A DNA stretch of 53,567 nt from Opitutia bacterium Tous-C1TDCM (GTDB taxonomy: Bacteria; Verrucomicrobiota; Verrucomicrobiia; Opitutales; Opitutaceae): contig NEUS01000009.1 of the NCBI GenBank assembly GCA_002288455.1, forward strand, positions 1-53,567. Direction: 5' to 3'. The notes below the pieces were generated by a model that was not told where the DNA came from, searched no databases, and saw only the letters and a program-made list of their open reading frames with translations. A program made the translations under genes and the position numbers. This document shows, piece by piece, positions 4,373 through 50,341 of this stretch (position 1 is the first letter of the stretch; every line of letters starts with the position of its first letter).

Positions 4373-4396
4373 GGGTTGAAGGGTGAAAGGTGAAGG
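4373..4396 (+). repeat. Heptamer-period array, left arm
   Basis: Period-7 units GGTTGAA, GGGTGAA, AGGTGAA follow each other between the divergent starts at 4290 and 4640. The array is approximately complementary to the one at 4481-4510, so the two form inverted arms around about 85 bp. Confidence 0.75.
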
Positions 4397-4403
4397 ATCG
4401 GAA

Positions 4404-4445
4404 GATGGGACGAATGGGACGGATGGGACTTAGGGGACGGATAGG
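4404..4445 (+). repeat. Nine-bp-period array (GGATGGGAC)
   Basis: Degenerate 9-mers GAATGGGAC, GGATGGGAC, TTAGGGGAC, GGATAGG lie between the two heptamer arms. They are the reverse complement of the GTCCTATCC/GTCCCATCC array at 32541-32576, so the same unit recurs 28 kb away in the other orientation. Confidence 0.75.
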
Positions 4446-4480
4446 CGCGGTGATGAGGGCGGCGGTCTCGTAGGCCCGAT

Positions 4481-4510
4481 CTTTCAACCTGCAACTTTCA
4501 CCCTTCAACT
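4481..4510 (+). repeat. Heptamer-period array, right arm
   Basis: Units CTTTCAA, CCTGCAA, CTTTCAC, CCTTCAA in strict 7-bp register. It is followed immediately by a perfect palindrome at 4511. Confidence 0.75.
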
Positions 4511-4534
4511 GCGAGGCCCCGGCCGGGGCCTCGC
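4511..4534. repeat. Perfect 24-bp palindrome
   Basis: GCGAGGCCCCGG is followed directly by its exact reverse complement, which would fold as a 10-bp stem with a GGCC tetraloop. It lies about 105 bp upstream of the PTPS start and touches the end of the heptamer array. No T-tract follows, so it is not a standard intrinsic terminator. It could be a regulatory hairpin, a protein-binding palindrome or part of the repeat element. Confidence 0.8.
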
Positions 4535-4639
4535 CCCGATGCCCGCAGCTAATGGCCGGCAGAGGCGTGGCTCACAGGCGGGTGTCGGATTGAGCCGGCG
4601 GATTGACCGCGGCGGGATTTTCGCTACGTCTGACCCTCC

Positions 4640-5128
4640 ATGCCGAAGCTTGCCGCCCGCAAAAAACCCGCGCCGCCCCGCGTGCTGCCCGGAATCGTGT
4701 ACATCACGCGGCAGGTGCATTTCAATTCGGCGCACCGGCTGTACAACCCGACCAAGAGCCAAGCCTGGAACGTGGAGCAGTACGGCCTTTGCACGAACCC
4801 GCATTGGCACGGGCACAATTACGTCCTCGAAGTGACGGTGCGCGGCCAGCCGCATCCGGATACCGGTTACGTCATGGAGCTGGGCGACTTGAAGGACCTG
4901 CTCAACGAAGCCGTGGTGGACAAGTGCGACCATCGGAATCTCAACACCGACGTCGATTTCCTGCGCAACGTGATCCCGTCGACGGAAAATCTGGTGATCG
5001 CGTTCTGGCACGAGCTCGCGCCGCGGTTGCCCAAGGCGGCGGAGCTTTACCGGATCCGACTTTTCGAAACGCCCCGCAACTACGCGGAATTTTTCGGCCC
5101 CGGCGCCACGGAGGCGTCCGCCCGCTGA
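4640..5128 (+). CDS. queD: 6-pyruvoyl/6-carboxy-tetrahydropterin synthase family protein
   Basis: 162 residues, of the PTPS/QueD family, which removes triphosphate from 7,8-dihydroneopterin triphosphate. Zinc ligands are visible in VHFNSAHRL and HGHNY. The catalytic cysteine sits in [11 protein letters not shown], with the Cys-x5-HGH spacing of animal PTPS, longer than the short CxxxHGH loop of classical QueD. The catalytic Asp-His pair is in CDHRNLN, and substrate glutamates are in STENL and LFETPRN. The first 20 residues (basic, proline-rich) are an extension. The stop overlaps ATG 5128 (TGATG), and FolE2 follows on the same strand. With FolE2 and the SDR downstream it may act in a biopterin-like pathway rather than in queuosine synthesis; queuosine or folate supply remain possible. 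Confidence 0.85.
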
Positions 5129-5193
5129 TGCGTCCGGAACCGATCCGCGGCCCCGGCCGACGGCGTCTGTTCCCCCGGAGATCGAGGAAGCCC

Positions 5194-6168
5194 ATGAAGA
5201 AGAAACCCATGTTTTTACACCGCACGGCGGGCGGCATCGAGCCGCTGATCGCGCGCGGGTTCCAGGCGAAGTTCAAGAGCGACGCCGCGTACCGCGAGTC
5301 GCTGCCGGACATGATGGAAGCGGTCGACGCGATCGGCGGGGCCAACGTGCCGATCCAGCAGGTCGGTTGCGCGAATTTCCGGTTGCCGCTGAAGTTCAAG
5401 GCGAAGGACGGCCGGGTTTTGACGCTCGAGACGGCGGTGACGGGGACGGTGTCCCTCGAGGCCAATCTCAAGGGCATCAACATGGGCCGCATCATGCGGA
5501 CCTTCTACGAGCACGAGGAGAAGGTGTTTTCGCCCGATCTGTTGCGGCGGATTCTCGAGCAGTACCGCCGCAAGATCGTCGCCTTCGAGGCGCGGGTGCG
5601 GCTGTCGTTTTCGTATCCGATTTTGCAACCGAGCCTGCGGAGCGGGCTGAAGGGCTGGCAGTATTACAAGGTGACTTTCGAAGGCACGATGGACCGCGAA
5701 GGCCGGTTCCGGAAGTTCATCGAATTCGATTTCGTCTATTCGTCGACCTGCCCGTGCAGCGCGGAGCTGGCGGAGCATGCGCGGCGCACGCGCGGGGTGT
5801 ACGCGACGCCGCATGCGCAGCGCTCGAAGGCGCGCGTGAAGGTCGAGATCGCCGCGGGCCGCACGCTCCCCATCGAGGACTTGCAGCGCCATTGCGCCGA
5901 AGGTCTGAAGACCGAGACACAGGTGATGGTGAAACGCGAGGACGAGCAGGCCTTCGCCGAGCTCAACGGCACCTACATCAAATTTGTCGAGGACGCGGCG
6001 CGCCTGCTCTACCGCGAATTGGCGGGCGACAAACGCATCGCCGATTTCCAGATCGCGTGCTCGCACCTCGAATCGCTGCATTCGCACGACGCCGTGAGCG
6101 TGATCTGCAAAGGCGTGCCCGGCGGGTTGCGCGCGGACTTCACCGATTTCGGTTCGCTCGTCTGCTGA
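5194..6168 (+). CDS. folE2: GTP cyclohydrolase FolE2 (type IB)
   Basis: 324 residues with the type IB GTP cyclohydrolase hallmarks: [12 protein letters not shown]-like N-terminus (here [13 protein letters not shown]), [16 protein letters not shown], metal-binding cysteine region [10 protein letters not shown], and the C-terminal [12 protein letters not shown] histidine block. It converts GTP to 7,8-dihydroneopterin triphosphate, the substrate of the preceding PTPS-family enzyme. The start at 5194 is chosen because GAGGA lies 5 bp upstream and homology begins at MKKKP. A second candidate, ATG 5128, overlaps the upstream stop (TGATG) and would add 22 arginine-rich residues. FolE2 enzymes can work without zinc, so the gene often stands in for FolE under metal limitation; no Zur-like site was recognised here. 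Confidence 0.93.
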
Positions 6169-6187
6169 GCGGGCGCGCCGCCGCGAA

Positions 6188-6203
6188 GGCCGCGTTCGCG
6201 GCC
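6188..6203. terminator. GC hairpin after folE2
   Basis: GGCCGC-GTTC-GCGGCC forms a 6-bp stem (7 bp if the loop closes) 20 bp after the folE2 stop. No T-tract follows, so termination is uncertain. Confidence 0.35.
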
Positions 6204-6209
6204 GATGGG

Positions 6210-6237
6210 AAGGCGAAAGGTGAAAGTTGAAAGCGGG
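6210..6237 (+). repeat. Short heptamer-period array
   Basis: AAGGCGA, AAGGTGA, AAGTTGA, AAGCGGG: four 7-bp units between folE2 and the SDR gene. No opposite arm is seen nearby. Confidence 0.65.
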
Positions 6238-6303
6238 GAAGACTCGCGGACGATGTGTCCGCGCGGGCGTTGCTTTGCGGGAAAGGAACGTTTCGCTGGC
6301 GCG

Positions 6304-7014
6304 ATGAAATCTCCCGTCGTTCTGATCACCGGTGCGTCCCAGGGGATCGGCGCCGCTTTGGCCGAGGAGTTCGCGCGTGAAATCAAGGGCGTGAAGCTCG
6401 CGCTCGTGGCGCGCAACGAGCGCAACCTCGCCGCGGTGGCGAAGACCTGCGCGCGCCGCGGGGCGAAGGCGGGGATTTTCGGTTGCGACGTCGCGGACGA
6501 GGCGGCAGTAGCGGCGATGGCCGCGGCGGTGACGAAGCGGTTCGGCCGGGTCGATGTGCTGATCAACAATGCGGGCGTGTTCGCCGGGGCGCCGTTCGCC
6601 GAGACGAAGGTCGCGGAGTTCGACCGCATCGTGGCGGCGAATCTGCGCAGCGCGTTTTTGGTCACGCAGGCCTTCGTGCCCGCGATGTTGGCGCGGAAGC
6701 ACGGCGACGTTTTCTTCATGAGCTCGATCGCGGGGCTCGACGCGTACCCGAACGGCGCGGCGTACTGCGCGGCAAAGTTCGGCGTGACGGGTTTGGCGAA
6801 AGTGCTGCGCGCGGAAACGAAAGGCACGGGCGTGCGCGTGTGCTGCGTGTATCCGGGGGCGACGTGGTCGCCGTCGTGGTCGGGTAGCGGCGTGCCCGAG
6901 GCGCGCATCATGCCGGCGGCGGATGTGGCGCGGGCGTTCTACGATGTTTACCGCCTCTCGCGGCGGACCGTGGTCGAGGAAATCGTGCTGCGGCCGGAGC
7001 AGGGGGATGTATGA
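6304..7014 (+). CDS. Short-chain dehydrogenase/reductase (possible sepiapterin reductase-like)
   Basis: 236 residues, a classical SDR. The Rossmann motif is TGASQGIG (residues 9-16), followed by NNAG, a catalytic Ser in SSIAG and the YCAAK Tyr-x3-Lys pair. An LVARNERNL segment after the second strand suggests NADP(H) preference. The ATG at 6304 is where SDR homology starts; GGAAAGGAA lies somewhat far upstream. An in-frame extension upstream would translate the heptamer array and is rejected. It lies directly downstream of PTPS and folE2 on the same strand. That order of activities (GTP cyclohydrolase, PTPS, SDR) matches tetrahydrobiopterin synthesis, where sepiapterin reductase is an SDR. 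The substrate cannot be read from the sequence, and a generic oxidoreductase is the alternative. Confidence 0.85.
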   Translation: MKSPVVLITGASQGIGAALAEEFAREIKGVKLALVARNERNLAAVAKTCARRGAKAGIFGCDVADEAAVAAMAAAVTKRFGRVDVLINNAGVFAGAPFAETKVAEFDRIVAANLRSAFLVTQAFVPAMLARKHGDVFFMSSIAGLDAYPNGAAYCAAKFGVTGLAKVLRAETKGTGVRVCCVYPGATWSPSWSGSGVPEARIMPAADVARAFYDVYRLSRRTVVEEIVLRPEQGDV

Positions 7015-7021
7015 TCAGAGG

Positions 7022-7053
7022 GAGTTGAGGGTTGAGAGCTGAGAGTTGAAAGC
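7022..7053 (+). repeat. Heptamer-period array, left arm
   Basis: Units GAGTTGA, GGGTTGA, GAGCTGA, GAGTTGA, AAGC begin 7 bp after the SDR stop. They are largely complementary to 7249-7279, so the two arrays bracket this convergent intergenic region. Confidence 0.8.
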
Positions 7054-7102
7054 AGGACCGACCGGACCCGCCGCCGCCCGCAGGTCTGCAGATCCCTCCC
7101 CC

Positions 7103-7185
7103 CGCCGCTTCAGCGGCGCCTCCGACTCCCTGCTGCGGCGATTCAGCCGCAGCCGCACTCCCAGATTTCGCCCGTTGGCGAAATC
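7103..7185. repeat. Three consecutive hairpins between the heptamer arms
   Basis: Three perfect stem-loops lie in a row: CGCCGC-TTCA-GCGGCG at 7103-7118, CTGCGGC-GATTCA-GCCGCAG at 7133-7152, and a 9-bp stem GATTTCGCC with loop CGTT at 7164-7185. Each can form in RNA from either strand. The region is non-coding and sits between convergent genes, so it may be a structured transcript or a double terminator. No T-tract is present. Confidence 0.65.
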
Positions 7186-7248
7186 CATCAGCGTTTCACC
7201 ATCCCCGCGCCCCGCCCCCGTCGCGAGCCCGTGCGGTCGGTCTCCCGA

Positions 7249-7279
7249 CTCTCAACGCTCAGCTCTCATCTCTCAACTC
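7249..7279 (+). repeat. Heptamer-period array, right arm
   Basis: Units CTCTCAA, CGCTCAG, CTCTCAT, CTCTCAA, CTC. It overlaps the 3' end of the amidohydrolase gene, whose stop codon (7266-7268) and last residues are encoded by the array. Confidence 0.8.
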
Positions 7280-8630
7280 CCCGCGCCGGCATCAATTCCA
7301 GCGCCGCCGCCGCCAGCGAGATCACGCAAGTCTGCAGCGTCGGATCGTGCAAAAACCGCACGTCCGGCGAATGGTTCGTCGGCACGCTCTTCCCCGCCTG
7401 CTTCGCCGCCGCGATCGCCGCCGGATCGCCCGCGCCGACTGTCCAGATCACCGCCGGCACCCGGTGCACCGTGCGGCCATACTCCGAAAAATCCTCCGCC
7501 CCCGTGATCGGCGGCACGGGCTCGACCCGCCCCGCCCCGAACCATTCGCGAAACGTCCCCGCCAGCTTCCGCGTCAGCTCCGGCGTATTCACCGTCACGT
7601 TCGCCCCTTCCTTCTGCAACACCACGACCGGCAGCCGGTCCTCCGGCACGCCCGCCGCGCGCCCGAGGCCGTCGCACATGCGCCGGATCGACGCCACCAG
7701 GTGCTCCATCACCTTGTCCTCGTAGCCGCGCAACGTCAGCTCCAGCTTCACTTCCTCGCCGATGATGTTGCGCTTCGTGCCGCCGTGGATCGATCCCACC
7801 GTCACGACCGCCGGCACGCCCGGCTGGATCTCGCGGCTCACGATCGTCTGCAAGCCGAGCACGATCTGCGCCGCCAGCACCACCGGATCCTTCGTGGTGT
7901 GCGGCGCCGAGCCATGCCCGCCCACGCCGCGTACGACCACGTCCACCGCCCATGAACTCGCATAGGCCGGACCCTCGGTGTACCCGACCAATCCCGCCGG
8001 GAAATGGCTGAACACATGCAGCCCCAGCGCGAAATCGGGCCGCGGAAAACGCGTGTAGAGTCCGTCCGTCAGCATCGCCCGCGCGCCCGACACGATCTCC
8101 TCCGCCGGCTGGCCGACGAACACGATCGTGCCGCGCCAACGTTCCTTCAGCGCCACCAGCGTCCGCGCCGCGCCGATCAACCCCGTGACATGGAGGTCGT
8201 GCCCGCACGCGTGCATCGTCGGCACTTCCTTGCCCGCGAGGTCCTTCTTCACCGCCTTGCTCGCCCACGGCAGATCGACGAGTTCCTTCACCGGCAAGCC
8301 GTCCATGTCCGCGCGGAGCAGCACCGTCGGGCCGTCGCCGTTCTTCAGCACGCCGACGACGCCCGTGTTGCCGACCTTTTCCGTCACCTCGATCCCGAGC
8401 GCCCGCAATTCCTTCGCGAGCAACGCCGCGGTTTCGAATTCCTGAAACGCCAATTCCGGATTCGCATGCAGCTGCTTGTAGATCGCCTCGAGCGACGCGA
8501 ACTCCGCCGCCACCCGCGCCTGCACCGCCTCGCGCACTTCACCGGACGCCGCCCGCGCCGCCGGCGCCGGCGCCGCAAAAACCAAGCCGAGCCCAAAGGC
8601 CGCGGCGGAGAACACATGCTTCGTTTTCAT
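7266..8630 (-). CDS. Exported M20-family amidohydrolase (M20D, hippurate hydrolase-like)
   Basis: 454 residues with a signal peptide at 1-29 (MKTKHVF, hydrophobic core, then APAARAA). Family M20D amidohydrolases cleave N-acyl amino acids or related amides using two metal ions. Visible ligands are Cys and His in MHACGHDLH, Glu-Glu in GQPAEE, His in GLHV, and the late His in NHSPDVRF. GGHGSAPH is the dimerisation-domain histidine segment and TGAEDFSEYG is the typical late motif. The ATG at 8630 is chosen because it opens the signal peptide. It is 44 bp downstream of the TIR/TPR gene on the same strand. The last residues GVER and the stop are read from a heptamer repeat array. Confidence 0.9.
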   Translation of the reverse strand: MKTKHVFSAAAFGLGLVFAAPAPAARAASGEVREAVQARVAAEFASLEAIYKQLHANPELAFQEFETAALLAKELRALGIEVTEKVGNTGVVGVLKNGDGPTVLLRADMDGLPVKELVDLPWASKAVKKDLAGKEVPTMHACGHDLHVTGLIGAARTLVALKERWRGTIVFVGQPAEEIVSGARAMLTDGLYTRFPRPDFALGLHVFSHFPAGLVGYTEGPAYASSWAVDVVVRGVGGHGSAPHTTKDPVVLAAQIVLGLQTIVSREIQPGVPAVVTVGSIHGGTKRNIIGEEVKLELTLRGYEDKVMEHLVASIRRMCDGLGRAAGVPEDRLPVVVLQKEGANVTVNTPELTRKLAGTFREWFGAGRVEPVPPITGAEDFSEYGRTVHRVPAVIWTVGAGDPAAIAAAKQAGKSVPTNHSPDVRFLHDPTLQTCVISLAAAALELMPARGVER

Positions 8631-8674
8631 GATTGGAAAAAGGGAACCGCGGCCGTGCCTCGACGCGACCGTCT

Positions 8675-12080: not shown

Positions 12081-12185
12081 GAACGTGGGGGAGAAGGAAA
12101 TCCGGACAATTCGTCGCGCCGAAGCCCCGGCGCAGACGGAACGATTCCAGAACCTCCCCGCCGCTGGCGAGCCCATAGCCGTACT

Positions 12186-12317
12186 CATGCAGTTGAGAGA
12201 ACTTGGCCGGGAGTTGAGCAAAACCGTTCGTTTCGTCCGGTTGTTGGCTTCGGCTAGGTATTCCGTGGCTCGGCGGATCGATCTCTCAACCCTCAACTTT
12301 GAACTCTCAGCTGCATG
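12186..12317. repeat. Dispersed inverted-arm element, copy A
   Basis: 132 bp in the divergent gap between the TIR gene and the DUF1800 gene. The ends are inverted (CATGCAGTTGAGAG at 12186 against CTCTCAGCTGCATG at 12304, 13 of 14 complementary). The right arm is heptameric (CTCTCAA, CCTCAAC). The 55-nt core 12219-12273, containing CCGTTCGTTTCGTC and TTCCGTGGCTCGG, matches 25959-26013 without gaps at about 85% by eye. The left flank is also conserved. It may be a MITE-like or REP-like element, or a non-coding RNA. Confidence 0.8.
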
Positions 12318-12471
12318 GTCTTTTGGCTCAGCGTTTCCCGACGCGCCCGTGAATTCGTCGTCAACTTTGCGCGCCGTGTGCCGTAATTTCCGCGCGCAGT
12401 TACGTGAGTTCGTACTTGGCGTCATCGGTGCGCCTTCGCATATCCATTCCACCCCGCCCCCCCTCAGCTGC

Positions 12472-15830: not shown

Positions 15831-17267
15831 ATGAGCCAGAAGAAGTCAGCCCCCGAAGTTACCCGCCGCGAATTCCTCGGCAGCGCCTGCTGCGCCGCCG
15901 TCGGCGCCACCGGCCTCCTCTCCGCCCTCTCCAGTCTCCGCCTGATGGGCGCCGTCGCCAGCCCCGGCAACGGCCCGCAAACCCCGTCGCGCTCGGGCAA
16001 TATCCCGGGCGACTACAAAGCCCTCGTTTGCCTGTTCCTCAACGGCGGCAACGACGCCAACAACCTCATCATCCCCACCGGCTCCGGCTACGCCGCCTAC
16101 GCCAGCGCCCGCTCCAACCTCGCCATCCCCGAAGACCGCGCCCTCGCCTTCGCGCCGAAGACCTCAGACGGCCGCACCTGGGGCCTCCATCCCTCGGTGT
16201 CCGAACTCCACAGTCTCTTCAACACCGGCAAAGCCGCCCTCATCGGCAACGTCGGCACCCTCGTCTACCCGACCACCAAGGCCCAATACACCGCCCGCAG
16301 CGTGCCGCTCCCGCCGCAGCTCTTCTCCCACAGCGACCAGCAGGTCCAGTGGCAGCACAGCGTGCCCGACAAGCCCACCTCCACCGGCTGGGGTGGCCGC
16401 GTCGCCGACCTCGTCAACGCTTTCAACACCAACAACGAGATTTCGATGTCGGTCAGTATCGCCGGCAAAAATACGTTCCAGGTCGGCGCCCAGGTCGCCC
16501 AGTACGCCATCAACACCGCCGGCGCCACCACCCTCGCGGGCGGCACCAGCAACGTCAACTCCACCGACGGCATCCGCTTCCGCGCCCAGAAGGACCTCTT
16601 CGCCCAGAGCCAGCCCGGTCTCTTCGAAACCGCTTTCGGCACCGCGTCCGGCGACGCCATCGTCAGTGCCGAACTGCTCAACAGCGTCCTCTCCGCTTCC
16701 GGCACCTTGCTCACGCCGTTCCCGGCCACCTCCGCCGGCAACCAACTCCGCATGGCCGCGCGCCTCATCGCCGCCTCGCCCAACCTCGGCCTCAAACGCC
16801 AGATCTTCTTTGTCCAGCTCGGCGGCTGGGACACCCACGCCGCCCAGCTGACCAACACCGATCCGACCACCGGGTCCCACGCCAACCTGCTCGCCCAAAT
16901 CAGCCAGGCCGTGAACGCGTTCTACAACGCCACGGTCGAACTCGGCGTCGCCAATCAGGTGACCACCTTCACCGCCTCCGACTTCGGCCGGACCTTCCGC
17001 TCCAACGGCGACGGCTCCGACCACGGCTGGGGCAGCCACCACTTCGTCGTCGGCGGCGCCGTCAAGGGCACGGAACTCTACGGCAAACTTCCGACCCTCA
17101 CGATCAACGGGCCCGACGACACCGGCCTCGGCCGCTGGATCCCCACCACGAGCGTCGACGAATACGCCGCGACTTTGGCGACCTGGTTCGGCGTCAGCGC
17201 CTCCGATCTTCCGACCGTCCTCCCCAACATCGGCCGCTTCGCGAAACCGAATCTCGGTTTCCTGTGA
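15831..17267 (+). CDS. DUF1501 protein, Tat-exported sulfatase-fold family
   Basis: 478 residues. The N-terminus carries a Tat-type signal (TRREFLGSACC plus hydrophobic stretch). DUF1501 features include ALVCLFLNGGNDANNL, the LGGWDTHA segment, TFTASDFGRTF and DHGWGSHHFVVGG, which resemble the metal-site motifs of the alkaline phosphatase/sulfatase superfamily. Members are exported and of unknown substrate. It lies 20 bp after the DUF1800 gene, so the two are almost surely co-transcribed. The paralogue at 48878-50245 shares the same motifs but has a shorter N-terminal region. A double Cys (CCAAVG) in the signal peptide is not in a clear lipobox context. Confidence 0.92.
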   Translation: MSQKKSAPEVTRREFLGSACCAAVGATGLLSALSSLRLMGAVASPGNGPQTPSRSGNIPGDYKALVCLFLNGGNDANNLIIPTGSGYAAYASARSNLAIPEDRALAFAPKTSDGRTWGLHPSVSELHSLFNTGKAALIGNVGTLVYPTTKAQYTARSVPLPPQLFSHSDQQVQWQHSVPDKPTSTGWGGRVADLVNAFNTNNEISMSVSIAGKNTFQVGAQVAQYAINTAGATTLAGGTSNVNSTDGIRFRAQKDLFAQSQPGLFETAFGTASGDAIVSAELLNSVLSASGTLLTPFPATSAGNQLRMAARLIAASPNLGLKRQIFFVQLGGWDTHAAQLTNTDPTTGSHANLLAQISQAVNAFYNATVELGVANQVTTFTASDFGRTFRSNGDGSDHGWGSHHFVVGGAVKGTELYGKLPTLTINGPDDTGLGRWIPTTSVDEYAATLATWFGVSASDLPTVLPNIGRFAKPNLGFL

Positions 17268-17295: not shown

Positions 17296-17410
17296 ATCCG
17301 TTTTCCGGTTTCAGTACTCCGGTCGCCGCCATCCCGGCCTCCGGACTCCGGTATCCGGTCTCCAAGTTCCGGTCTTGAATTCCGGTCTCCGAATTCCGCA
17401 TTCCGGTTTT
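17296..17410 (+). repeat. Heptamer-period array with GGTCTCC/GAATTCC units
   Basis: A run of 7-bp units such as CGGACTC, CGGTATC, CGGTCTC, CAAGTTC, GGTCTCC, GAATTCC fills the gap between DUF1501 and the next gene. The same GGTCTCC unit occurs inside the coding sequence at 20568-20665. No inverted partner is seen. Confidence 0.8.
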
Positions 17411-20477: not shown

Positions 20478-20846
20478 ATGAAATCCATCTTCCTCTTCCT
20501 CGCCACCTTCGCCCTCGGCGCCGTCGCCGCCCTCGCCGTCCGCACCGCCCGCCACGACCCGGCTCCCGTTTCCTCGTTTCCGGTCTCCGGTCTCCCCACT
20601 CCGGTTTCGGCAGCTCCGGTTTCCCCTGCCCCGTCTCCGGTCTCCGGTCTCCCAATTCCGGTCTCGAAATCGCCGGTCAACACCGTCTGCGCCATTTGCG
20701 GCATGGACGTGGACCCGAAACTGCCCACCGCCGAATACCAGGGCAAAACCATCGGCTTCGGCTGCCGCATGTGCCCGCCGAAGTTCAAGGCCGAGCCCGA
20801 CAAATTCGGCCCGCTCTACCTGCGCAACGAAGTCGTCAAACGCTGA
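20478..20846 (+). CDS. YHS-like metal-binding protein with repeat-derived linker
   Basis: 122 residues: an N-terminal membrane helix or signal (MKSIFLFLATFALGAVAALAV), a Pro/Val/Ser linker at about 31-63, and a C-terminal YHS-type module with CAICGMDVDP, AEYQGKTIGFGCRMCPPKFKA. Such modules deliver or sense copper-like ions. The linker is encoded by a heptamer array (20568-20665) whose GGTCTCC unit matches the intergenic array at 17296-17410. Because 7 is not a multiple of 3, the array is read in all three phases, giving a 7-residue amino-acid period (PVSGLPT, PVSAAPV). It lies 4 bp after the TolC-like gene and 4 bp before the adaptor gene. Confidence 0.8.
   Translation: MKSIFLFLATFALGAVAALAVRTARHDPAPVSSFPVSGLPTPVSAAPVSPAPSPVSGLPIPVSKSPVNTVCAICGMDVDPKLPTAEYQGKTIGFGCRMCPPKFKAEPDKFGPLYLRNEVVKR
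20568..20665 (+). repeat. Heptamer array inside a coding sequence
   Basis: Units CGTTTCC, GGTCTCC (repeated), CCACTCC, GGTTTCG and CAATTCC in a largely 7-bp register. It encodes residues 31-63 of the YHS-like protein without breaking the frame. Confidence 0.8.
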
Positions 20847-25200: not shown

Positions 25201-25915
25201 GGCCATCCGCTCCGAAGGCGGCAAGCGCACGCAATACGTGCTCCTCAACGCCCGCGGCCGCGGCGAGGTCGAGGTCGTGCGCGACGCCGACGCTCGTCTG
25301 CGCGCCGCGCTCGCCGCCGGCACCCTCGCGCTGCCCGCCGGCGCCACCTACCGCTGGGTCGGCCGCTACGAACAGAAACTCAAAGCCGACGCCTCGCTCC
25401 GCTGGATCATCGCCGCCTCGCTCGCCGTGATGGTGATTCTGATCTACGTCGGCACGCGCTCCTGGCTCATCACCGCGATCATCATTTTCGCCAACGCCAG
25501 CGTCACCACCGCCGGCGGCTTCTTCTTCGTCTGGTGGTGGGGCGCCGAACTCACCACCGCCGTCATCGTCGGCTTCATCGTGCTGCTCGGCGTCATGTTC
25601 AACGACGGCATCTTGCTCGGCACCTACCTGCAGGAAAAATTCGCCACGCCGCCGCGCGATGTCGCCGACGTCCATGCCCGGGTCTTCCAGGCGGGCCTCC
25701 GCCGCCGGCGCCCCGCGATCATGACGAATGCCACGACTTTGCTCTCCCTCGTGCCCGTGCTCTGGGCCACCGGCCGCGGCGCCGAACTCATGATCCCCAT
25801 GGTCCTGCCCGTCGTCGGCGGCATGCTCTTCGATATCGTATCCCTTTTCTCGGTACCCGTGTTCTACACCTGGTATTGGGAACGGAAACTCGCCCGCCGG
25901 CCCGCGGCCCGCTGA
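22211..25915 (+). CDS. CusA/CzcA-family heavy-metal RND transporter
   Basis: 1234 residues, GTG start. The N-terminus (FAIRNPFLTLAASLALAFAG, VPVDAIPDLSDNQVIVWAEWPGQSP) is that of heavy-metal RND pumps. TM4 reads AIAIGVMVDFGIIMTEN, the form with a conserved Asp and Glu. LLFMPSIPAAGG and the QVPVTAGHGAIPLSNL region are typical. The protein is about 190 residues longer than the usual 1040. An extra stretch between the two halves (about 520-600) has two hydrophobic segments (ILLAAAGLAGGLAFGWFV and WLFAPLFGGAVALLVW), and another insert lies near 960-1000. Substrate is inferred as Cu(I)/Ag(I) from CusB-like motifs and the linked Cu(I) ATPase; Czc-type ions are possible. Confidence 0.92.
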   Translation: MLTFAIRNPFLTLAASLALAFAGLWAWRQVPVDAIPDLSDNQVIVWAEWPGQSPQDIDQQVTSRLARELQGLPGVQTVRGMSLYGAAYLYVIFEERRDLYDCRTRVLERLSQVQGLLPAGVNPRLGPDTTAMGQIYAFTLQGPRDLEAKRYLLDQVVVPALRAVPGVAEVAPAGGVVREYQIDVDPLRLEEQGLTLDLLMMAVRSAGRDTGAMSVERSGVETMLRGVGFIRSVADVENIVLRGNRALGAGLRLGDVATVSLGGQFRQGLLADAHQEHVGAIVGLRVREDPKRVIDAVKRRLADLAPTFAREQVSVVPFYDRSQLIRETTATLSSTLVEAVVTTALVVIVFLLHARASLAVAVSLPLGMLFTFLVMHLVGVGANIMSLAGIAIAIGVMVDFGIIMTENITQHLVDLQEKCRREGRALPTSPFDAEITAAVIAGAREVARPLLTSAATTVIGFLPIFALQDQAGRLFAPLALTKSLAISGAVLFGTLLVPVLCRLLLPPWQVRKPILLAAAGLAGGLAFGWFVRDGWSLPQDYGRWALTVPGWLFAPLFGGAVALLVWRLGRERLVNYEENPASRAIHVAYEWAYVRIQRHKVAFTAAIASLAFGGYLLGLGWPTVSWPLRQGFALVGADLSRTAFDQALARAFPGVGSSFLPPLDEGSLLFMPSIPAAGGLGETQRIMLAQNRLIESIPEVAHVMGKMGRAETALDPAPLGMIETVVLLKPYADWPAHPFTRPDGTEEQRPRTLAEVRAALAAISDIPGVAPSWLQPIETRVVMLSTGIRSLIALQMLGDDSDALERFAEAAEKVVQETPGAADVQMQREGGKPYAEIRLDPAKLARFGLTNEQVMRTVETAFGGMAVTYSVEGALRYPVRLRYPRELRDDADELTQLQVPVTAGHGAIPLSNLLATPTVHTLAFADASGSRLSAFTAQLSLSHQRNLTFLSPGRAELTLPAGEALESVLAPLPAAARPAAVSSRPSELGLTYTVGPMAIRSEGGKRTQYVLLNARGRGEVEVVRDADARLRAALAAGTLALPAGATYRWVGRYEQKLKADASLRWIIAASLAVMVILIYVGTRSWLITAIIIFANASVTTAGGFFFVWWWGAELTTAVIVGFIVLLGVMFNDGILLGTYLQEKFATPPRDVADVHARVFQAGLRRRRPAIMTNATTLLSLVPVLWATGRGAELMIPMVLPVVGGMLFDIVSLFSVPVFYTWYWERKLARRPAAR

Positions 25916-25926
25916 GCCGAGCTCAA

Positions 25927-26053
25927 GCAGTTGAGAGAGCTTGGCTGAGAGTTGAGAGCAAATCCGTTCGTTTCGTCAGGTTGCTGGATTCGGCGACGTT
26001 TTCCGTGGCTCGGTTCGGTCCTTCAACTTTCACCTTTCAACGTTCGACTGCAT
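25927..26053. repeat. Dispersed inverted-arm element, copy B
   Basis: About 127 bp after the RND pump gene. It has the same left flank (GCAGTTGAGAGA, then CTTGG, then GAGTTGAG) and the same 55-nt core (25959-26013) as copy A at 12186. Its right arm uses a different heptamer (TTCAACT, TTCACCT, TTCAACG), so the core is conserved while the arm unit has switched. Confidence 0.8.
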
Positions 26054-26250
26054 TTGTCCGGCTGAGGCCGACCGGCCGCGCCCGCCCGCCCGCGGCCGGT
26101 AGGTACATACCCGACAGCCGGACCGGCCCGCGGCGCGTATCATCCCGCCCTGAACGCACCACGCTTTCGCCGGGATTCCATTTTCCGCATCCACCCGCGC
26201 TTCGGCACCCGTGAAACCGCGCCGGCGCGAAAATCGCCGGGGACTTCGTG
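26054..26250. other. Intergenic gap without recognised genes
   Basis: About 200 bp between element copy B and the phosphatase gene. No gene, tRNA or clear terminator is seen. Confidence 0.5.
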
Positions 26251-29685: not shown

Positions 29686-29740
29686 TCCCGCTGCCGCCGC
29701 GCCGCCGGAAATCAATTGGTCGTGGATCTTCGCCCCCCTC

Positions 29741-29776
29741 CGCCCCATCCGTCCCATCCGCCCTGCCCGCCCCGCC
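29741..29776 (+). repeat. Nine-bp-period array (CGCCCCATC)
   Basis: CGCCCCATC, CGTCCCATC, CGCCCTGCC, CGCCCCGCC in a 9-bp register between two genes. It is related to the GTCCTATCC array at 32541. Confidence 0.65.
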
Positions 29777-31017: not shown

Positions 31018-31097
31018 CGTTTCCCGCTTTTCCAATTTCCCCCATTTCCGGTTTTCCGTCCTTCCGTCCTTCCGTCCTTTCGCCTTTCGCCTTTTCC
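31018..31097 (+). repeat. Pyrimidine-rich periodic array before the COG0523 gene
   Basis: Units near 7-8 bp (TTCCAAT, TTCCGTCC three times, TTTCGCC twice) run right up to the ATG at 31099. No AG-rich ribosome-binding site is visible in front of this start. Confidence 0.6.
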
Positions 31098-32540: not shown

Positions 32541-32601
32541 GTCCCATTTGTCCTATCCGTCCTATCCGTCCCATCCCCCATTCCCCATCCCCAATCCCCC
32601 C
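32541..32601 (+). repeat. Nine-bp-period array (GTCCTATCC) with heptamer tail
   Basis: Four 9-bp units: GTCCCATTT, GTCCTATCC, GTCCTATCC, GTCCCATCC (32541-32576), followed by about 25 bp in 7-bp register (CCCATTC, CCCATCC, CCAATCC). It is the reverse complement type of the array at 4404-4445. Confidence 0.8.
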
Positions 32602-38529: not shown

Positions 38530-38546
38530 AGCAGCGCAGGGAGCCG

Positions 38547-38637
38547 GTAAGCTCTAAGCTGTAAGCCAAAAGCTCCAAGCCCCCGGCAGATCCCGAGCTT
38601 ATAGCTTTAAGCTTGGAGCTTACCGCTTAAAGCTTCC
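38547..38637. repeat. Inverted heptamer arrays (AAGCTNN) between convergent genes
   Basis: The left arm uses TAAGCTC, TAAGCTG, TAAGCCA, AAAGCTC, CAAGCCC; the right arm uses GAGCTTA, TAGCTTT, AAGCTTG, GAGCTTA, CCGCTTA, AAGCTTC. AAGCTCCAAGC at 38570-38580 pairs perfectly with GCTTGGAGCTT at 38611-38621. It fills the gap between the two convergent stops and could act as a bidirectional terminator. Confidence 0.85.
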
Positions 38638-39790: not shown

Positions 39791-39838
39791 GACCCAAGTG
39801 AATTTCGGAATCGAGGTTCATGGAAAAATGGGGTGGGC

Positions 39839-39925
39839 GTCGGCCTTCGCCGACCCGGGCCCGGACAAGGCAGCGGCGGCGAATTCATTTCCGCCGCCGC
39901 CCTTCTTTCAACTTTCAGCTTTCAA
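39839..39925. repeat. Two hairpins followed by a heptamer array
   Basis: GTCGGC-CTTC-GCCGAC (39839-39854), then a GCGGCGG/CCGCCGC stem with a TTCAT region (39873-39900), then CTTTCAA, CTTTCAG, CTTTCAA (39905-39925), just 3' of the Gfo/Idh stop at 39942 on the minus strand. It could act in termination. Confidence 0.65.
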
Positions 39926-39941
39926 CTCGCGCCAAGCGCGC

Positions 39942-41372: not shown

Positions 41373-41537
41373 GAGGTAAGAGGTCGAGGGGTTGCTGCGC
41401 GGGGCCGGACGCAACGGACGCCCCGAGGATGCGCAGTGTTTTCGAACCGACGCGCGCAAGTCAACGCCCGGCCCTGCGCGAATCTTGCCCGAGGCAATGT
41501 TTCCCTTGTCGGACGCTCCGCCCCCCGCTCCGCGTCC

Positions 41538-41580
41538 TTCAACTTTCACCCTTCAACTTTCACCCTTCAACTTTCAACTC
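41538..41580 (+). repeat. Heptamer array abutting a stop codon
   Basis: Six 7-bp units: TTCAACT, TTCACCC, TTCAACT, TTCACCC, TTCAACT, TTCAACT. The array ends exactly at the stop codon (41581-41583) of the GH144-like gene. This is the cleanest example of the family. Confidence 0.9.
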
Positions 41581-43098: not shown

Positions 43099-43126
43099 CT
43101 TTCACCTTTCAACCTTCACCTTTCAA
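43099..43126 (+). repeat. Short heptamer array
   Basis: CTTTCAC, CTTTCAA, CCTTCAC, CTTTCAA between the xylanase stop and the GH144-like start. No partner arm. Confidence 0.75.
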
Positions 43127-43148
43127 CTGTCCCACAATCACAACCGGC

Positions 43149-45887: not shown

Positions 45888-46355
45888 ATGCGCCGTTCTC
45901 TCCGCCGTCCCGCCGCCGGGTTCTCCCTCGTGGAGATCATGATCGTCGTCGTCATCATCGGCTTGCTCGCCGCCATGGCCGTTCCCGCCCTGCAACGCGT
46001 CCGGCTCCGCGCCGTCGCCAGCCGCTACCTCAACGATGCCCGCCAGATCCGCGACGGCGCCGAACGCTACGCCATGGAAACCGGCCAATTCCCGCCCAAC
46101 GGCGTCATGAGTCTCCACGCCGAACTGCGCGGCTATATCCCGGATTCGATTTTCGCCAGCACCACGACCCCGCTCGGCGGCGTCTGGGATTGGGACTTCC
46201 AGCAAAGCGGCATCACCGCCGCCATCTCCGTCTACCAACCGACTGCGTCCGACGAACTGCTCCTCCACATCGACCGCACCATCGACGACGGCGATCTCGC
46301 CACCGGCAATTTCCGCCGCGCGAACAGCAAAGCTATCTACGTCATCCAACCCTGA
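45888..46355 (+). CDS. Type IV prepilin-like/pseudopilin protein
   Basis: 155 residues. The leader MRRSLRRPAAG is followed by FSLVEIMIVVVIIGLLAAMAVPAL, the class III signal with the prepilin peptidase site after Gly11, Glu at +5 and the N-methylated hydrophobic helix. The rest is a short globular domain (DARQIRDGAERYAMETGQFPPNG) typical of the GspG-like minor pseudopilins of Verrucomicrobia and Planctomycetes. It diverges from the xylanase gene and precedes DUF1800 by 165 bp. It may assemble in a type II secretion-like or pilus-like machine, perhaps connected with export of the DUF1800/DUF1501 pair. Confidence 0.88.
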   Translation: MRRSLRRPAAGFSLVEIMIVVVIIGLLAAMAVPALQRVRLRAVASRYLNDARQIRDGAERYAMETGQFPPNGVMSLHAELRGYIPDSIFASTTTPLGGVWDWDFQQSGITAAISVYQPTASDELLLHIDRTIDDGDLATGNFRRANSKAIYVIQP

Positions 46356-46454
46356 GCCGCGCTCAGGCCGCCGGGCGAGCTCGGCCGCGGGGCCGCCGCC
46401 GCACCCGCAGCAACGTGCTCCCTGCCGAATTTTTCGCGCTCCGTCTGTAATCGC

Positions 46455-46519
46455 CGCCGCGTTTTCCGTTTTCCTCCGGCGGCTCCCGTTTCTCCCCGTC
46501 TCCCTTCCTCCGTTCCCTT
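46455..46519 (+). repeat. Degenerate pyrimidine-rich array before DUF1800-2
   Basis: Units near 7 bp (TTTTCCG, TTTTCCT, CTCCCGT, TTCTCCC, TCCGTTC) run up to the ATG at 46521. The period is weaker than in other arrays, and the stretch may simply be pyrimidine-rich. Confidence 0.4.
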
Positions 46520-46520
46520 C

Positions 46521-48833
46521 ATGATCCCTCGCTTCTTCCGCTTCGCCGCCGCGCTGCTCCTCGCCGGCCTCGCCCACGCCCAATCCATCACCGTTTACAG
46601 CAGCGGCAATGTCACCCGCGGCGGCTCCCGCCAACTCACCGCCTACGTCCCGCTCAGCCCCGCCACCGTCGTCTGGTCCGTCAACGGCGTCCCCGGCGGC
46701 GACGCCGTCTTCGGCACCGTCTCGCCCACCGGCCGCTACCAGGCTCCCGCCGCGATCCCGGAGGCCAACGCCGTCTCCGTCCGCGCCACCAGCACCGCGT
46801 ATCCAAATCAGTCGCACGCCGTCACCCTCGTGATCACGCAGCCCGCCGTGAACCTGTGGAGTCTCTCCCCGTCGTCCGTGCCCGCCGGCGACTTCACGAT
46901 CCGCGTCAACGGCTCCAACTTCCACGCCGGCTCCGTCGTCCACCTCGCCGGCACCCCGCTCGCCACCACCTTTCTTTCCGCCACCGGTCTGCGCGCCGTC
47001 GGCCACGCCCCCGCCGCCCTCGCCGGCAAATCCCTCGATGTCACCGTCGTCAACTCCGGGCTCGGCGGCACGGTCAGCTCCGCCGTCCGCCTCGCGATCA
47101 CCGCCCCGGTCGCCGTGCCCGTCACCGTCGCCGTCGCCCCTGCCACCGTCGGCCTCAATCTCGGCGCCACCCGTACCTTCGCCGCCACCGTTAGCGGCAG
47201 CACCAACTCCGCCGTCATCTGGAGCGTCGCCGGTGTCGTCGGCGGCAATCCCGTCGTCGGCACCATCTCCGCCGCCGGTCTCTACACCGCCCCCGCCGCC
47301 CTCCCGTCCCCCGCCACCGTCACGATCCGCGCCGCCAGCGTCGCCGATCCCGCCGTCGGCGCCAACGCCGTCGTCACCCTCAGCGTTCCGCCCGCCGGCT
47401 CCGGTCCCGCCAGCGATCTCGCCGCCGGCCGTTTCCTCGAACAAGCCGCCTACGGCCCCACTCCCGCCGCCCTGCAACGCGTGCAGCAACTCGGCATCCC
47501 CGCCTGGCTCGACGAGCAATTCGCCCTGCCCGAAACCCCGATTTCCAATCCCGGCGGCATGGGCATGGCCGCCGTGCAGGCCCACTACCTCCACCGCGTC
47601 GCCACCGCCCCCGACCAACTCCGCCAACGCGTCGCCTACGCCCTCGGCCAGATCGTCGTGATCTCCGCCAACAAGAACATCTACCCCGACGAACTCGTTC
47701 CCTACCTCCAACTCCTCAGCCGCCACGCCTTCGGCAACTACCGCACCTTCCTCGGCGAGATTTCCCGCAGTTCTCAAATGGGCAAATACCTCGACCTCGC
47801 CAACAGCAACTCCCCCACCCCCGGCAGCGCCGCCAACGAAAACTTCGCCCGCGAGCTCATGCAGCTCTTCACCATCGGGCTCTACGCGCTGAATCCCGAC
47901 GGCTCCCGCCAACTCGACGCCGCCGGCCTCCCGCTCCGCGCCTACGACCAGCACACCGTCCAGCAGGTCGCCCTCGCCCTCACCGGTTGGACCTTCCCCG
48001 GCCCCGCCGACAACAACTGGGAAAACTTCTCCGGCCCCCTCCAACCCCGCGAGGCCAACCACTACGCCGGCGCCAAACAACTCGTCGGTCTCACGTTGCC
48101 GGCCGGCCAATCCGTCAACGCCGATCTCGACGGCGTCCTCGACTGGCTCTTCCACCATCCGAACACCGGGCCGTTCCTCGCCACGCGCCTCATTCGCGCC
48201 CTCGTCAAAAGCAATCCCACGCCCGGCTACATCGCCCGCATCTCCGCCGTCTTCGCCGCCAACGGCGCCGGCGTCCGCGGCGATCTCCGCGCCGTCGTCC
48301 GCGCCATTCTCACCGATCCCGAAGCCCGCCAGGACCAAAGCCCCGCCGACGGCGGCCGCCTCAAAGACCCGATCTTCAACGTCGTCGCCTTCGTGCGCGC
48401 CCTCGGCGGCTCCATCTCCGCGACCAACCAACAGGCGTGGACCTTCAGCCGCATGAGCCAGACGCCCTTGGCCCCCGCCTCCGTCTTCGGTTTCTATTCG
48501 CCGCTCTTCCGCGTGCCGCGCTCGTCCCTCGTCGGCCCCGAATTCCAGATCTACGGCCCGACGGAGTCCGTGCTCCGCGGCAATCTCTTCTGGCAAATCC
48601 TCTCGCATCCGGGAACCGATTTCCCCGTCGACCTCGCCCCGTTCGTCAACCTCGCCGGCGATCCCGCCGCCCTCATCGACGCCGTCGACCGCACTCTCCT
48701 CTACGGCCGCATGCCCGCCGCGATGCGCCAATACCTCGCCACCGCGATCGCCGCCCAAGGCGACGCCCTCGCCCGCGCCCAGACCGCCCTCTACCTCACG
48801 GCCCTCTCCGGTTTCTACGCCGTCCAATACTGA
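46521..48833 (+). CDS. DUF1800 protein, second copy
   Basis: 770 residues. A signal peptide (MIPRFFRFAAALLLAGLAHA) is followed by Ig-like/IPT-like beta domains: TVVWSVNGVPGGDAVFGTVS, WSLSPSSVPAGDFTIRVNGSNF and AVIWSVAGVVGGNPVVGTIS. DUF1800 occupies about 300-770 with FLEQAAYGPTPAAL, APDQLRQRVAYALGQIV, ENFARELMQLFTIGL and LALTGWTFP. The N-terminal beta domains differ from those in the copy at 12472 (Ig/IPT here, LSTR modules plus CHRD there), so the pair has been re-fitted with different exposed domains. DUF1501 follows after 44 bp. The enzymatic role of the family is unknown. Confidence 0.92.
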   Translation: MIPRFFRFAAALLLAGLAHAQSITVYSSGNVTRGGSRQLTAYVPLSPATVVWSVNGVPGGDAVFGTVSPTGRYQAPAAIPEANAVSVRATSTAYPNQSHAVTLVITQPAVNLWSLSPSSVPAGDFTIRVNGSNFHAGSVVHLAGTPLATTFLSATGLRAVGHAPAALAGKSLDVTVVNSGLGGTVSSAVRLAITAPVAVPVTVAVAPATVGLNLGATRTFAATVSGSTNSAVIWSVAGVVGGNPVVGTISAAGLYTAPAALPSPATVTIRAASVADPAVGANAVVTLSVPPAGSGPASDLAAGRFLEQAAYGPTPAALQRVQQLGIPAWLDEQFALPETPISNPGGMGMAAVQAHYLHRVATAPDQLRQRVAYALGQIVVISANKNIYPDELVPYLQLLSRHAFGNYRTFLGEISRSSQMGKYLDLANSNSPTPGSAANENFARELMQLFTIGLYALNPDGSRQLDAAGLPLRAYDQHTVQQVALALTGWTFPGPADNNWENFSGPLQPREANHYAGAKQLVGLTLPAGQSVNADLDGVLDWLFHHPNTGPFLATRLIRALVKSNPTPGYIARISAVFAANGAGVRGDLRAVVRAILTDPEARQDQSPADGGRLKDPIFNVVAFVRALGGSISATNQQAWTFSRMSQTPLAPASVFGFYSPLFRVPRSSLVGPEFQIYGPTESVLRGNLFWQILSHPGTDFPVDLAPFVNLAGDPAALIDAVDRTLLYGRMPAAMRQYLATAIAAQGDALARAQTALYLTALSGFYAVQY

Positions 48834-48877
48834 TTCTCTCCGCCCGCTCCACCCGCCCGCCTTTCCCGCGTCCTCCC

Positions 48878-50245
48878 ATGCAACACCCCTCCTTCGTTTC
48901 CCGCCGCAGCTTCCTCCAAAAAACGAGCCTGCTCGCCGCCGCCACCGGCCTCGGCCGCCTCGGCCTGCTCAACGCCCGCGCCCAATCCGCTCCCGCCGCC
49001 GGCAACGACTACAAAGCCCTCGTCTGCGTCTTCATGCTCGGCGGCAACGACGGCCACAATCTCCTCGTCCCCCTCAACGGCTCCGCCCTCGCCGCCTACC
49101 GCCAGGCCCGCGGCTCGCTCGCGCTCCCCGACGGCAGCACGCAGGTCCTCCCGGTCTCCGCCCAAAACGGCGTCCCCTACGGTCTCAACAGCGGCCTCGC
49201 CGCCCTCCATCCGCTCTGGGCCCAGGGCAAACTCGCCGCCATCGCCAACGTCGGCCTGCTCGTCAAACCGACCTCCCGGCCGCAGTACCTCGACGCCACC
49301 GTCGGCCTGCCCTCGAACCTGTTCTCCCACTCCGACCAAGTCATCGCCATGCAGGCCGGCGACCCCCACGGCTCCGGCGGCTCCGGCTGGGCCGGCCGCA
49401 TCGCCGACGCCACCCGCAGCTACAACGCCGCCGCCACCTTCCCGCCCGCGATCTCGTTCGCCGGCTCCGCCCTCTTCTGTTCCGGCAACATCGTCCAATC
49501 CACCAGCCTGATCCCCGGCTTCAATCTCGCCGCCGACGGCCTCGCCGCCTGGCCCGCCAGCGCCGCCGCCGCCCGCGCCCAGGCCCTGCAGGAAGTCATC
49601 GGCCTCAACTCCGGCCTCTCCCTCGTGCAGGCCGCCAACGACGTCCGCGCCGACGGCCTCGAGCTCAACGGCATGCTCACCGGCCTCGGCAACGGCAACC
49701 TCGGCACCGCCTTCCCCGGCACCGCCATCGGGCAACAGCTCCGCCAAGTCGCGCAGATCATTTCGCTGCGCGGCGCCACCGGCATGAAACGCCAGGTCTT
49801 CTTCTGCGCCCTCGGCGGCTTCGATACCCACTCGATCCAGAGCTGGACCCAAATGGATCTCCTCCGGCAACTCGCGGAAGGCATGGCCGCCTTCTATCAG
49901 GCCACCGAGGAAATGGGCGTCGCCGACCGCGTGACGACGTTCACCGCCAGCGAATTCGGCCGCAGCCTCCAACCCAGCGGCTCCGGCTCCGACCACGGCT
50001 GGGGCAACCACCACCTCATCCTCGGCGGCGCCGTGCACGGCGGCGACCTCTACGGCACCTTCCCCGATCTCAGCCTCGGCGGCCCCGACGACACCGGCAA
50101 CCGCGGCGTGCTCATCCCGACGACGTCGCTGGACCAATTCGGCGCCACCTGCGCGCGCTGGTTCGGCGTCGCCCCCGCCGATCTCGCCTCCGTCTTCCCC
50201 AACCTCCCGAACTTCGCCACCCCCGACCTCGGCTTCGTCGGCTGA
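48878..50245 (+). CDS. DUF1501 protein, second copy, Tat-exported
   Basis: 455 residues. A Tat signal (VSRRSFLQKTSLLAAATGLG) precedes NDYKALVCVFMLGGNDGHNLLVP, FFCALGGFDTHS, TFTASEFGRSL and DHGWGNHHLILGGAV, the same motif set as the copy at 15831. LIPTTSLDQFGATCARWFGV near the end is shared with that copy. It is 44 bp after DUF1800-2 and probably co-transcribed with it. The signal places it outside the cytoplasm. Substrate unknown. Confidence 0.92.
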   Translation: MQHPSFVSRRSFLQKTSLLAAATGLGRLGLLNARAQSAPAAGNDYKALVCVFMLGGNDGHNLLVPLNGSALAAYRQARGSLALPDGSTQVLPVSAQNGVPYGLNSGLAALHPLWAQGKLAAIANVGLLVKPTSRPQYLDATVGLPSNLFSHSDQVIAMQAGDPHGSGGSGWAGRIADATRSYNAAATFPPAISFAGSALFCSGNIVQSTSLIPGFNLAADGLAAWPASAAAARAQALQEVIGLNSGLSLVQAANDVRADGLELNGMLTGLGNGNLGTAFPGTAIGQQLRQVAQIISLRGATGMKRQVFFCALGGFDTHSIQSWTQMDLLRQLAEGMAAFYQATEEMGVADRVTTFTASEFGRSLQPSGSGSDHGWGNHHLILGGAVHGGDLYGTFPDLSLGGPDDTGNRGVLIPTTSLDQFGATCARWFGVAPADLASVFPNLPNFATPDLGFVG

Positions 50246-50313
50246 CCGCGCGCCCCTCTCCGCTCCTGTAGCTGCCAGCGTGAGCGAGCGGCCGGGAACC
50301 GAACGCGGCCGTT

Positions 50314-50341
50314 CCTTCAACCTTAACGTTTCACCTTTCAA
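50314..50341 (+). repeat. Short heptamer array
   Basis: CCTTCAA, CCTTAAC, GTTTCAC, CTTTCAA in 7-bp register, 34 bp before the sigma factor start. A CGGCCG self-complementary pair lies just upstream (50289-50310). Confidence 0.7.

Follow-up and report, generated by a model that had tools for sequence, protein, structure and literature searches.

Tandem heptamer arrays with gap-specific units and inverted partners in the intergenic DNA of an Opitutaceae genome

INTRODUCTION

Intergenic heptamer repeats are a kind of sequence already known from Xanthomonas, Nostoc and Beggiatoaceae. In Xanthomonas (GGGAATC) and Nostoc (GGGGA(T/C)T), one G-rich unit per genome has been studied, four units are preferred, quadruplexes have been shown in vitro and 16% of the repeats lie between convergent genes (Rehm et al. 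2015, PMC4692102). The heptamer TAACTGA is repeated in Beggiatoaceae, some Cyanobacteria and Bacteroidetes (MacGregor 2015, PMC4679880; see also PMC4853749); in the first of these reports it is a fixed unit of intergenic direct repeats, mostly in few copies and mostly just upstream of start codons, and related heptamers are rarely or never repeated. Several tandem heptamers per genome are known from the STRR repeats of Calothrix (heterocystous cyanobacteria), and the heptamer excess noted in bacterial genomes has been hypothesised to reflect the footprint of the polymerase (both as cited in PMC4692102). The heptamer families described in these reports were studied with one fixed unit, so that sequence-specific or quadruplex explanations stayed open. 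Inverted arms and a position at gene ends are features of MITEs and REP palindromes; we know of no description of paired arms or of a gene-end layout for STRR.

The arrays considered here were found in a draft genome of Opitutia bacterium Tous-C1TDCM (G000; Verrucomicrobiota, Opitutaceae), which is 4.15 Mb long and 85.8% complete and has Opitutae/Opitutaceae MAGs as its nearest named relatives. The window, by which we mean the whole stretch of 53,567 nucleotides that was analysed, is its contig C150 (NEUS01000009.1), read on the forward strand. Like the TAACTGA repeats these are intergenic heptamer direct repeats, mostly of few copies, but their unit is free and they favour gaps between convergent genes. 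They differ from the Xanthomonas and Nostoc heptamers in having dozens of units, in the small number of arrays that carry a quadruplex motif, and in the share that sits between convergent genes (36 of 100 arrays). A preliminary description had likened them to cyanobacterial STRR repeats, which is a fair analogy, although the intergenic heptamers of Xanthomonas are closer in layout (PMC4692102). The combination within one genome of a free unit with a near-fixed period, matched arms and a bias to convergent gaps is new to us. No report of heptamer arrays in Opitutaceae could be recognised from titles and abstract openings in the literature covered, which excludes most subscription papers, and the word Opitutus is absent from the main text of a survey of structure-related repeats (PMC4060949).

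GENOMES AND ARRAY DETECTION

The array finder was run on 752 kb of G000 with 379 gaps of 30-700 bp, the genes being called by a simple, non-standard caller self-trained on codon usage. Twenty stretches came from contigs with pattern hits (133 arrays per Mb) and 20 others were taken in order (121 arrays per Mb); the score threshold for an array is 10, 11 or 12, depending on the analysis. Self-match at fixed lags was computed for 212 gaps from 429 kb, comprising the window and stretches from contigs with pattern hits. Array densities in genomes other than G000 are based on 40-217 kb per genome, and the sample of the sister species G160 contains two contig ends picked for their long arrays. Some 9-bp 'arrays' (for example C1:84634-85085) may be missed coding sequence, as their period is a multiple of three.

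A PREFERENCE FOR SEVEN, WITH MANY UNITS

Intergenic DNA was found to match itself at lag 7 with a frequency of 0.324, compared with 0.284 after dinucleotide shuffling (z 18.3; 212 gaps). Lags 14 and 21 are also in excess (z 12.5 and 8.5), and a smaller excess is seen at lags 6 (z 10.5), 15 (z 8.2), 9 (z 7.1) and 8 (z 6.1), so that the intergenic excess at lags 7 and 9 anticipated in the preliminary description was borne out. At a score of at least 12, the finder marks 80 intergenic period-7 arrays in the 752 kb and 10 more at each of periods 8 and 9, compared with 0.6, 0.8 and 0.2 in each dinucleotide-shuffled set; periods 4, 5, 6, 10, 11 and 12 yield 1, 0, 2, 1, 1 and 3. Contigs that had not been picked for hits hold 39 arrays in 323 kb, 32 of them with period 7, and tracts that match perfectly over at least 35 positions occur at periods 7, 8 and 9 only (6, 2 and 1, respectively; periods 5-11 in eight genomes). 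The period had been called strict and constant; seven does dominate, but periods 8 and 9 are present as well. The arrays had also been said to fill most intergenic gaps, and this was an overstatement of a phenomenon that is nevertheless strong: an array is present in 81 of the 379 gaps of G000 and, among the 22 window gaps of 30-700 bp, in 12 at a score of at least 10 and in 10 at a score of at least 12 (shuffles 0.3 and 0.1). The original observation is thus partly confirmed. Arrays are present in other genomes as well, including the one-contig genome G003.

Coding DNA shows no excess at lag 7 (0.269, about the same as at lags 5 and 8) and displays the codon period only. It had been thought to lack the signal except for one linker, which holds for the lag statistic but not for single arrays, since 665 kb of called genes contain 10 of period 7 at a score of at least 12. 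One of these, within a called gene of the window, is a CCGGTCT array at 20623-20652 (score 14.2). In 80 named loci (1.16 Mb, coding included; mostly from Verrucomicrobia, a few bearing the labels of other phyla, and in part overlapping the G-numbered genomes, hence not fully independent of them), 23 period-7 arrays at a score of at least 15 stand against 0, 3, 3 and 1 at periods 5, 8, 10 and 11; the counts at periods 6, 9 and 12 (18, 13 and 6) are probably inflated by codons. The period-7 units of these loci differ again from those of the other sets.

Variation of the unit by locus, as first described, was upheld: 58 consensus units are found among 134 period-7 arrays from eight genomes, most of the arrays being from G000 and G160. 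The commonest are AAAGTTG (23) and AGAGTTG (22), which make up 45 of the 134, followed by AGTTCGG, ATTGCGG and AAACCGG; further genomes carry other units, such as ATGTAAG-like and CTCAGGT-like ones. The over-representation of 7-bp repeats in intergenic DNA is shared with the STRR and GGGAATC class, but the one or few fixed units per genome of that class are not found, and the Beggiatoaceae unit TAACTGA is absent among the consensus units of the 134 arrays. The period holds whilst the unit varies by gap and is hence separable from the sequence, which argues for step size as the common cause rather than one conserved binding site. A near-constant period could also be read by a protein that recognises 7-bp spacing, or the arrays could form G-quadruplexes as shown in vitro for the Xanthomonas heptamers, and the spread of units such as TTCAACN (51 of 150 family genomes) counts in favour. 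We consider either version very improbable, given the 58 distinct units, a quadruplex motif in only 8 of 174 arrays, a window in which no Rfam family scores at gathering level, and array sizes that range between 2 and 22 units, the peak at 4-5 being partly set by the score threshold. The suggestion of a spacing-recognising protein made at the outset found no support, as presence of the arrays also varies within one genus, and G-quadruplexes were rejected as a general cause on the count of motifs.

ARRAYS OF THE WINDOW

When the sites named beforehand were scored singly, seven was the best period at 6210, 7022, 7249, 17334 (named as 17296), 38548, 39905, 41538 and 43099, and nine at 4405, 29734 and 32541. 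Four further sites proved weak, namely 50314 (score 6.8), 4481 (7.2), 12304 (7.8) and 4373 (9.6), and no array was found at 12186 on scoring. All features below are given on the + strand. The span 4373-4512 begins with a purine-rich 7-bp array (GTTGAAGGGTGAAAGGTGAA; 4374-4394, score 9.6 at period 7) as left arm and ends with a pyrimidine-rich 7/14-bp array (CTTTCAACCTGCAACTTTCACCC; 4481-4510) as right arm, the latter having a 14-bp period in TRF and being weak alone (score 7.2 at period 7); between both arms lies a 9-bp array (ATGGGACGR; 4405-4438, score 16.2), the units of which are the same in the orthologous gap of G160. Two gaps between convergent genes each hold a pair of 7-bp arrays: GAGTTGA (7024-7052, score 13.2) on the left and CTCTCAA (7248-7279, score 14.0) on the right of the span 7022-7280, and TAAGCTC (38548-38583, score 11.4) followed by GAGCTTA (38596-38635, score 13.2). 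Complementary arms had been proposed for 4373/4481, 7022/7249, 12186/12304 and 38547/38590, and all four spans do fold, with z of -5.8, -8.1, -3.3 and -5.8 (100 shuffles each), but the third belongs to a dispersed element and is not a pair of arrays.

Further units of 7 bp are found at 6210-6233 (AAGGTGA, score 12.6; the array in the G160 gap is of the same unit type and slightly longer), at 17334-17405 (CCGGTCT in 7/14-bp arrays, by TRF and scoring; the G160 gap is of another length and keeps the unit type) and at 39905-39927 (CTTTCAA, score 11.6; one unit longer in G160). The array at 41538-41579, detected by TRF and scoring, consists of an exact 14-bp double unit in 2.9 copies, counted from 41536. 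No 7-bp array is marked in the G160 counterparts of a CTTTCAC array at 43099-43128 (score 12.0) and of a weak TTCAACC array at 50314-50340 (score 6.8, below threshold). Longer periods are represented by 9-bp arrays at 29734-29776 (CCCATCCGT, score 18.6) and 32541-32576 (GTCCTATCC, score 18.2; the same units in fewer copies in G160), the second of which is adjoined by a 7-bp array at 32570-32599 (CCCATTC, by TRF and the array finder; unmarked in the G160 gap), and by an 8-bp array at 31045-31096 (TTCCGTCC, score 22.0) that ends just 5' of the next called start (31099). Two genes of the window, at 15831-17267 and 48878-50245, are related to each other (44% identity over most of their length) and belong to a family that is multi-copy per genome in the genus.

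GENE-END POSITION AND PAIRED ARMS

Occupancy depends on the orientation of the neighbouring genes. Arrays are present in 27 of 60 convergent, 44 of 242 tandem and 10 of 77 divergent gaps of G000 (convergent versus divergent p 4e-5; a second comparison p 3e-5), and in contigs not picked for hits the respective figures are 12 of 24, 14 of 109 and 3 of 30. On the + strand purine-rich arrays lie to the left and pyrimidine-rich arrays to the right; this is clear in convergent and tandem gaps and not significant in divergent ones (p 0.11). Array-free gaps share a weaker purine-then-pyrimidine trend, so that part of the polarity of the arms is background. The purine arm comes first in 19 of the 21 gaps holding both kinds of array, and all 25 opposite-type arm pairs (20 gaps of G000) are ordered purine-rich, spacer, pyrimidine-rich. 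As a group these arms match the arm in their own gap above random dealing (mean 24.4 versus 16.2, reached in 0 of 5000 permutations), and a single pair is often unremarkable, since in the median case a fraction of 0.30 of the other arms match as well. An inverted partner in its own gap at a score of at least 24 is found for 50 of 138 arrays; when the best of four shuffled gaps is taken instead, the number falls to 3 of 138. The 20 paired spans of up to 260 bp fold with a mean z of -4.1, and in 4 of the 20 z lies above -1.

These features are also what would be expected if selection kept the paired arrays as transcription terminators that work in both directions or as hairpins at mRNA 3' ends, the main rival to an origin by copying. 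A transcript would then meet a purine-rich arm after the stop codon and a pyrimidine-rich arm beyond it, and the two would form a long imperfect stem whose register can slide. Arrays no more than 20 bp from a called stop are indeed purine-rich on the coding strand in 54 cases versus 18 (eight genomes), the convergent gaps and the folding of the paired spans fit as well, and T-tract terminators are seen in 7 of the 36 array-bearing convergent gaps versus 11 of 34 without arrays, a small difference. We nonetheless regard a terminator role as unlikely: 298 of the 379 gaps are array-free, no regular U-tract follows the arms by eye, the polarity recurs weakly where there is no array, the two arms show no matching base changes, and in samples of 40-80 kb three genomes of the same genus (G054, G161 and G167) have no arrays. 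Slippage and a terminator role may both hold.

Arrays as replacements for ribosome-binding sites before start codons were considered and rejected, as Shine-Dalgarno-like motifs are seldom seen in any case (39 of 470 starts that lack a nearby array and 1 of 24 that have one). Such motifs occur at few called gap starts altogether, 40 of 494 in G000 and G160 with the simple caller.

DISPERSED PALINDROMIC ELEMENTS

A family of palindromic elements of ~150 bp, with ends reading TCATGCAGTTGAGAG, is represented by 16 core copies in the 752 kb, two of them in the window; the element is also seen at L062:16165-16320. The first window copy (12167-12330, padded by 10 bp on each side) contains the sites 12186 and 12304 and an inner 7-bp array at 12285-12312 (score 7.8), and the second (25901-26063, likewise padded) contains one at 26022-26048 (score 11.2) and folds no better than shuffles (z -1.2). 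GTTGAGA heptamers in the ends and inner arms of the element explain why 12186/12304 had been flagged as a pair. The end motifs number 122 in G000 (reversed control 2) and 120 in G160 (control 1), and many of those listed are paired ~121 bp apart. CTNAG-like flanks were seen by eye in an alignment of the copies. The family is likely a MITE. Scattered homologous copies that end in inverted repeats are found for it alone and not for the arrays generally. A query with the element matched 44 of 150 family genomes (five candidates scored per genome), the listed matches outside G000 being mostly to its heptamer stretch and not to the whole element.

Its existence raises the question of whether all the arrays could belong, as arms, to small mobile elements of the MITE or foldback type, with the heptamers serving as repeated transposase sites. 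Gene-end position and inverted arms are shared with MITEs and REP sequences, this one family is MITE-like with ~120 end motifs per genome, and the sister species has a copy of the element in a gap where G000 has only a short array. Yet just 4 of the 100 arrays with a score of at least 12 overlap the family and 96 lie outside it; the 45 longest all-against-all matches, as far as inspected, belong to two dispersed families and to no other dialect of unit; and no clear long autonomous pair was seen among the 100 places listed for each of G000 and G160. Nor do counts of Y1_Tnp track the arrays, with one match in G000 and no match in either G017 or G023, where the TTCAAC pattern is found 9 and 7 times. 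A mobile origin of the arrays at large thus appears quite unlikely. A RAYT/REP origin was likewise set aside, on the same Y1_Tnp counts (a few genomes inspected), which do not point to a linked RAYT transposase as in REP/REPIN sequences.

A second dispersed family, of ~140-165 bp, was noticed at L048:7582-7951, L074:7537-7874, L059:4926-5130 and L077:11812-11979; the last copy contains words such as CACGGAATCTCACGGA and CATCTGTGGAATCTGTGG.

CHANGE BETWEEN SISTER SPECIES

G160 is 86-93% identical to G000 over the ten longest syntenic blocks. Thirty-one gaps could be compared, made up of 17 mappable window gaps and 14 gaps of contig C1 with an array in either species; 22 of the 60 C1 gaps were unmapped in G160 and dropped, and several window gaps were likewise unmapped. 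Arrays are present in both species in 18 of the 31, in G000 only in 4, in G160 only in 3 and in neither in 6. Unit type is mostly preserved, whereas length differs by whole units at some loci; a perfect AACTCCG tract has 8 units in G000 and 9 in G160. At 38530-38637, the TAAGCTC unit of G000 corresponds to a GCTGATN-type unit in both arms of G160, where the order of the arms is reversed with the pyrimidine-rich one first, and at 41373-41580 G160 has the dispersed-element copy referred to above. Neighbouring units within an array are most alike, with 1.54, 1.92, 2.41 and 3.35 mismatches per 7 at unit distances of 1-4. Indels in multiples of 7 are modestly enriched, accounting for 7 of 36 inside arrays versus 15 of 218 elsewhere in the gaps (Fisher p 0.02), and mismatches affect 11% of aligned positions in arrays versus 16% outside them in the same gaps. 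No base-by-base co-change between the arms was seen (self better in 11, cross better in 9, equal in 5).

Long perfect arrays of 7 or 8 bp lie at contig ends or a few bases from them (L062:1-121, L063:1-123, L204:1-94, L210:8475-8571 and L211:8669-8762). Arrays are found at 4 of 38 contig ends (19 whole contigs) versus 52 of 2000 random segments. Long perfect arrays stand at contig ends in G000 and G160 alike, so that the assemblies probably break at such arrays and the longest ones are under-counted.

ORIGIN OF THE ARRAYS

The reading that we prefer, whilst giving it slightly less than an even chance, is whole-unit slippage with a preferred step of 7 bases together with inverted copying aided by hairpins; the arrays would be tolerated chiefly at the 3' ends of genes and would have multiplied in one lineage. 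Slippage during DNA copying would make and alter degenerate arrays in steps mostly of 7 and sometimes of 8 or 9, irrespective of sequence. Hairpin-assisted template switching would carry the unit sequence from one arm over to its partner and so give each gap a shared 'dialect'. Selection against damage to genes and promoters would let arrays survive where insertions are least harmful, above all between convergent genes, and amplification would have taken place in the lineage of G000 and G160; most copies would have no essential function. A copying or slippage process had been suggested in the preliminary description, and this half of the suggestion has gained support from the likeness of neighbouring units, the 2.9-copy double unit at 41536, the tract of 8 versus 9 units and the restriction of perfect tracts to periods 7, 8 and 9.

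Several findings count against this account. Slippage by itself leaves the sharp preference for 7 over 5, 6, 10 and 11 unexplained. Indels inside arrays are in 29 of 36 cases not multiples of 7, and array detection itself favours in-register changes. The arrays do not evolve fast by substitution, and 18 of the 25 array-bearing gaps keep them in both sisters; selection could be an alternative reading of both observations. Other arms often match as well as the partner (median 0.30), co-change of the arms was not seen, and their order is reversed at 38530 in the sister.

Two repair defects were considered and rejected. There was no sign of a loss of mismatch repair, MutS_V being present in G000 and in 25 of the 27 genomes of the genus; to our knowledge, 7-base loops are not a classic substrate of mismatch repair. 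For the hairpin nuclease SbcD, only G164 and G167 pass the cut-off (2 of 27 congeners), a match is lacking in G000 and weak in G160, and array-rich and array-poor genomes are not separated. Readings as attC sites or as phase variation were also weighed and set aside.

A wider and more tentative proposal, which we think rather doubtful as it stands, is that a sequence-blind copying process with a step of ~7 bases makes heptamer arrays and their inverted partners across the non-coding DNA of Verrucomicrobiota, with the one-unit families of Xanthomonas, Nostoc and Beggiatoaceae as special cases. If true, strains in which such copying is very active, like G000, would make the question of 'why seven' testable.

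DISTRIBUTION IN THE FAMILY

The arrays are spread unevenly over the family, and one species pair shows a strong burst. Their density per Mb is 133 in G000 and 216 in G160 (where two of the stretches were picked for arrays), 30-50 in G003, G004, G020, G052 and G071, and 7 in G139. Samples of 100 kb gave no array in G013 and one of 8 bp in G048. Among samples of 40-80 kb, G154 has one array (9 bp) and G157 six, and no array of 7-9 bp was found in the congeners G054, G161 and G167. The pair G000 and G160 and their array-poor congeners therefore offer a natural comparison for finding the responsible factor. The GAACTCC pattern has 175 matches in G000 and 244 in G160, versus 0-16 in each of the other 25 congeners.
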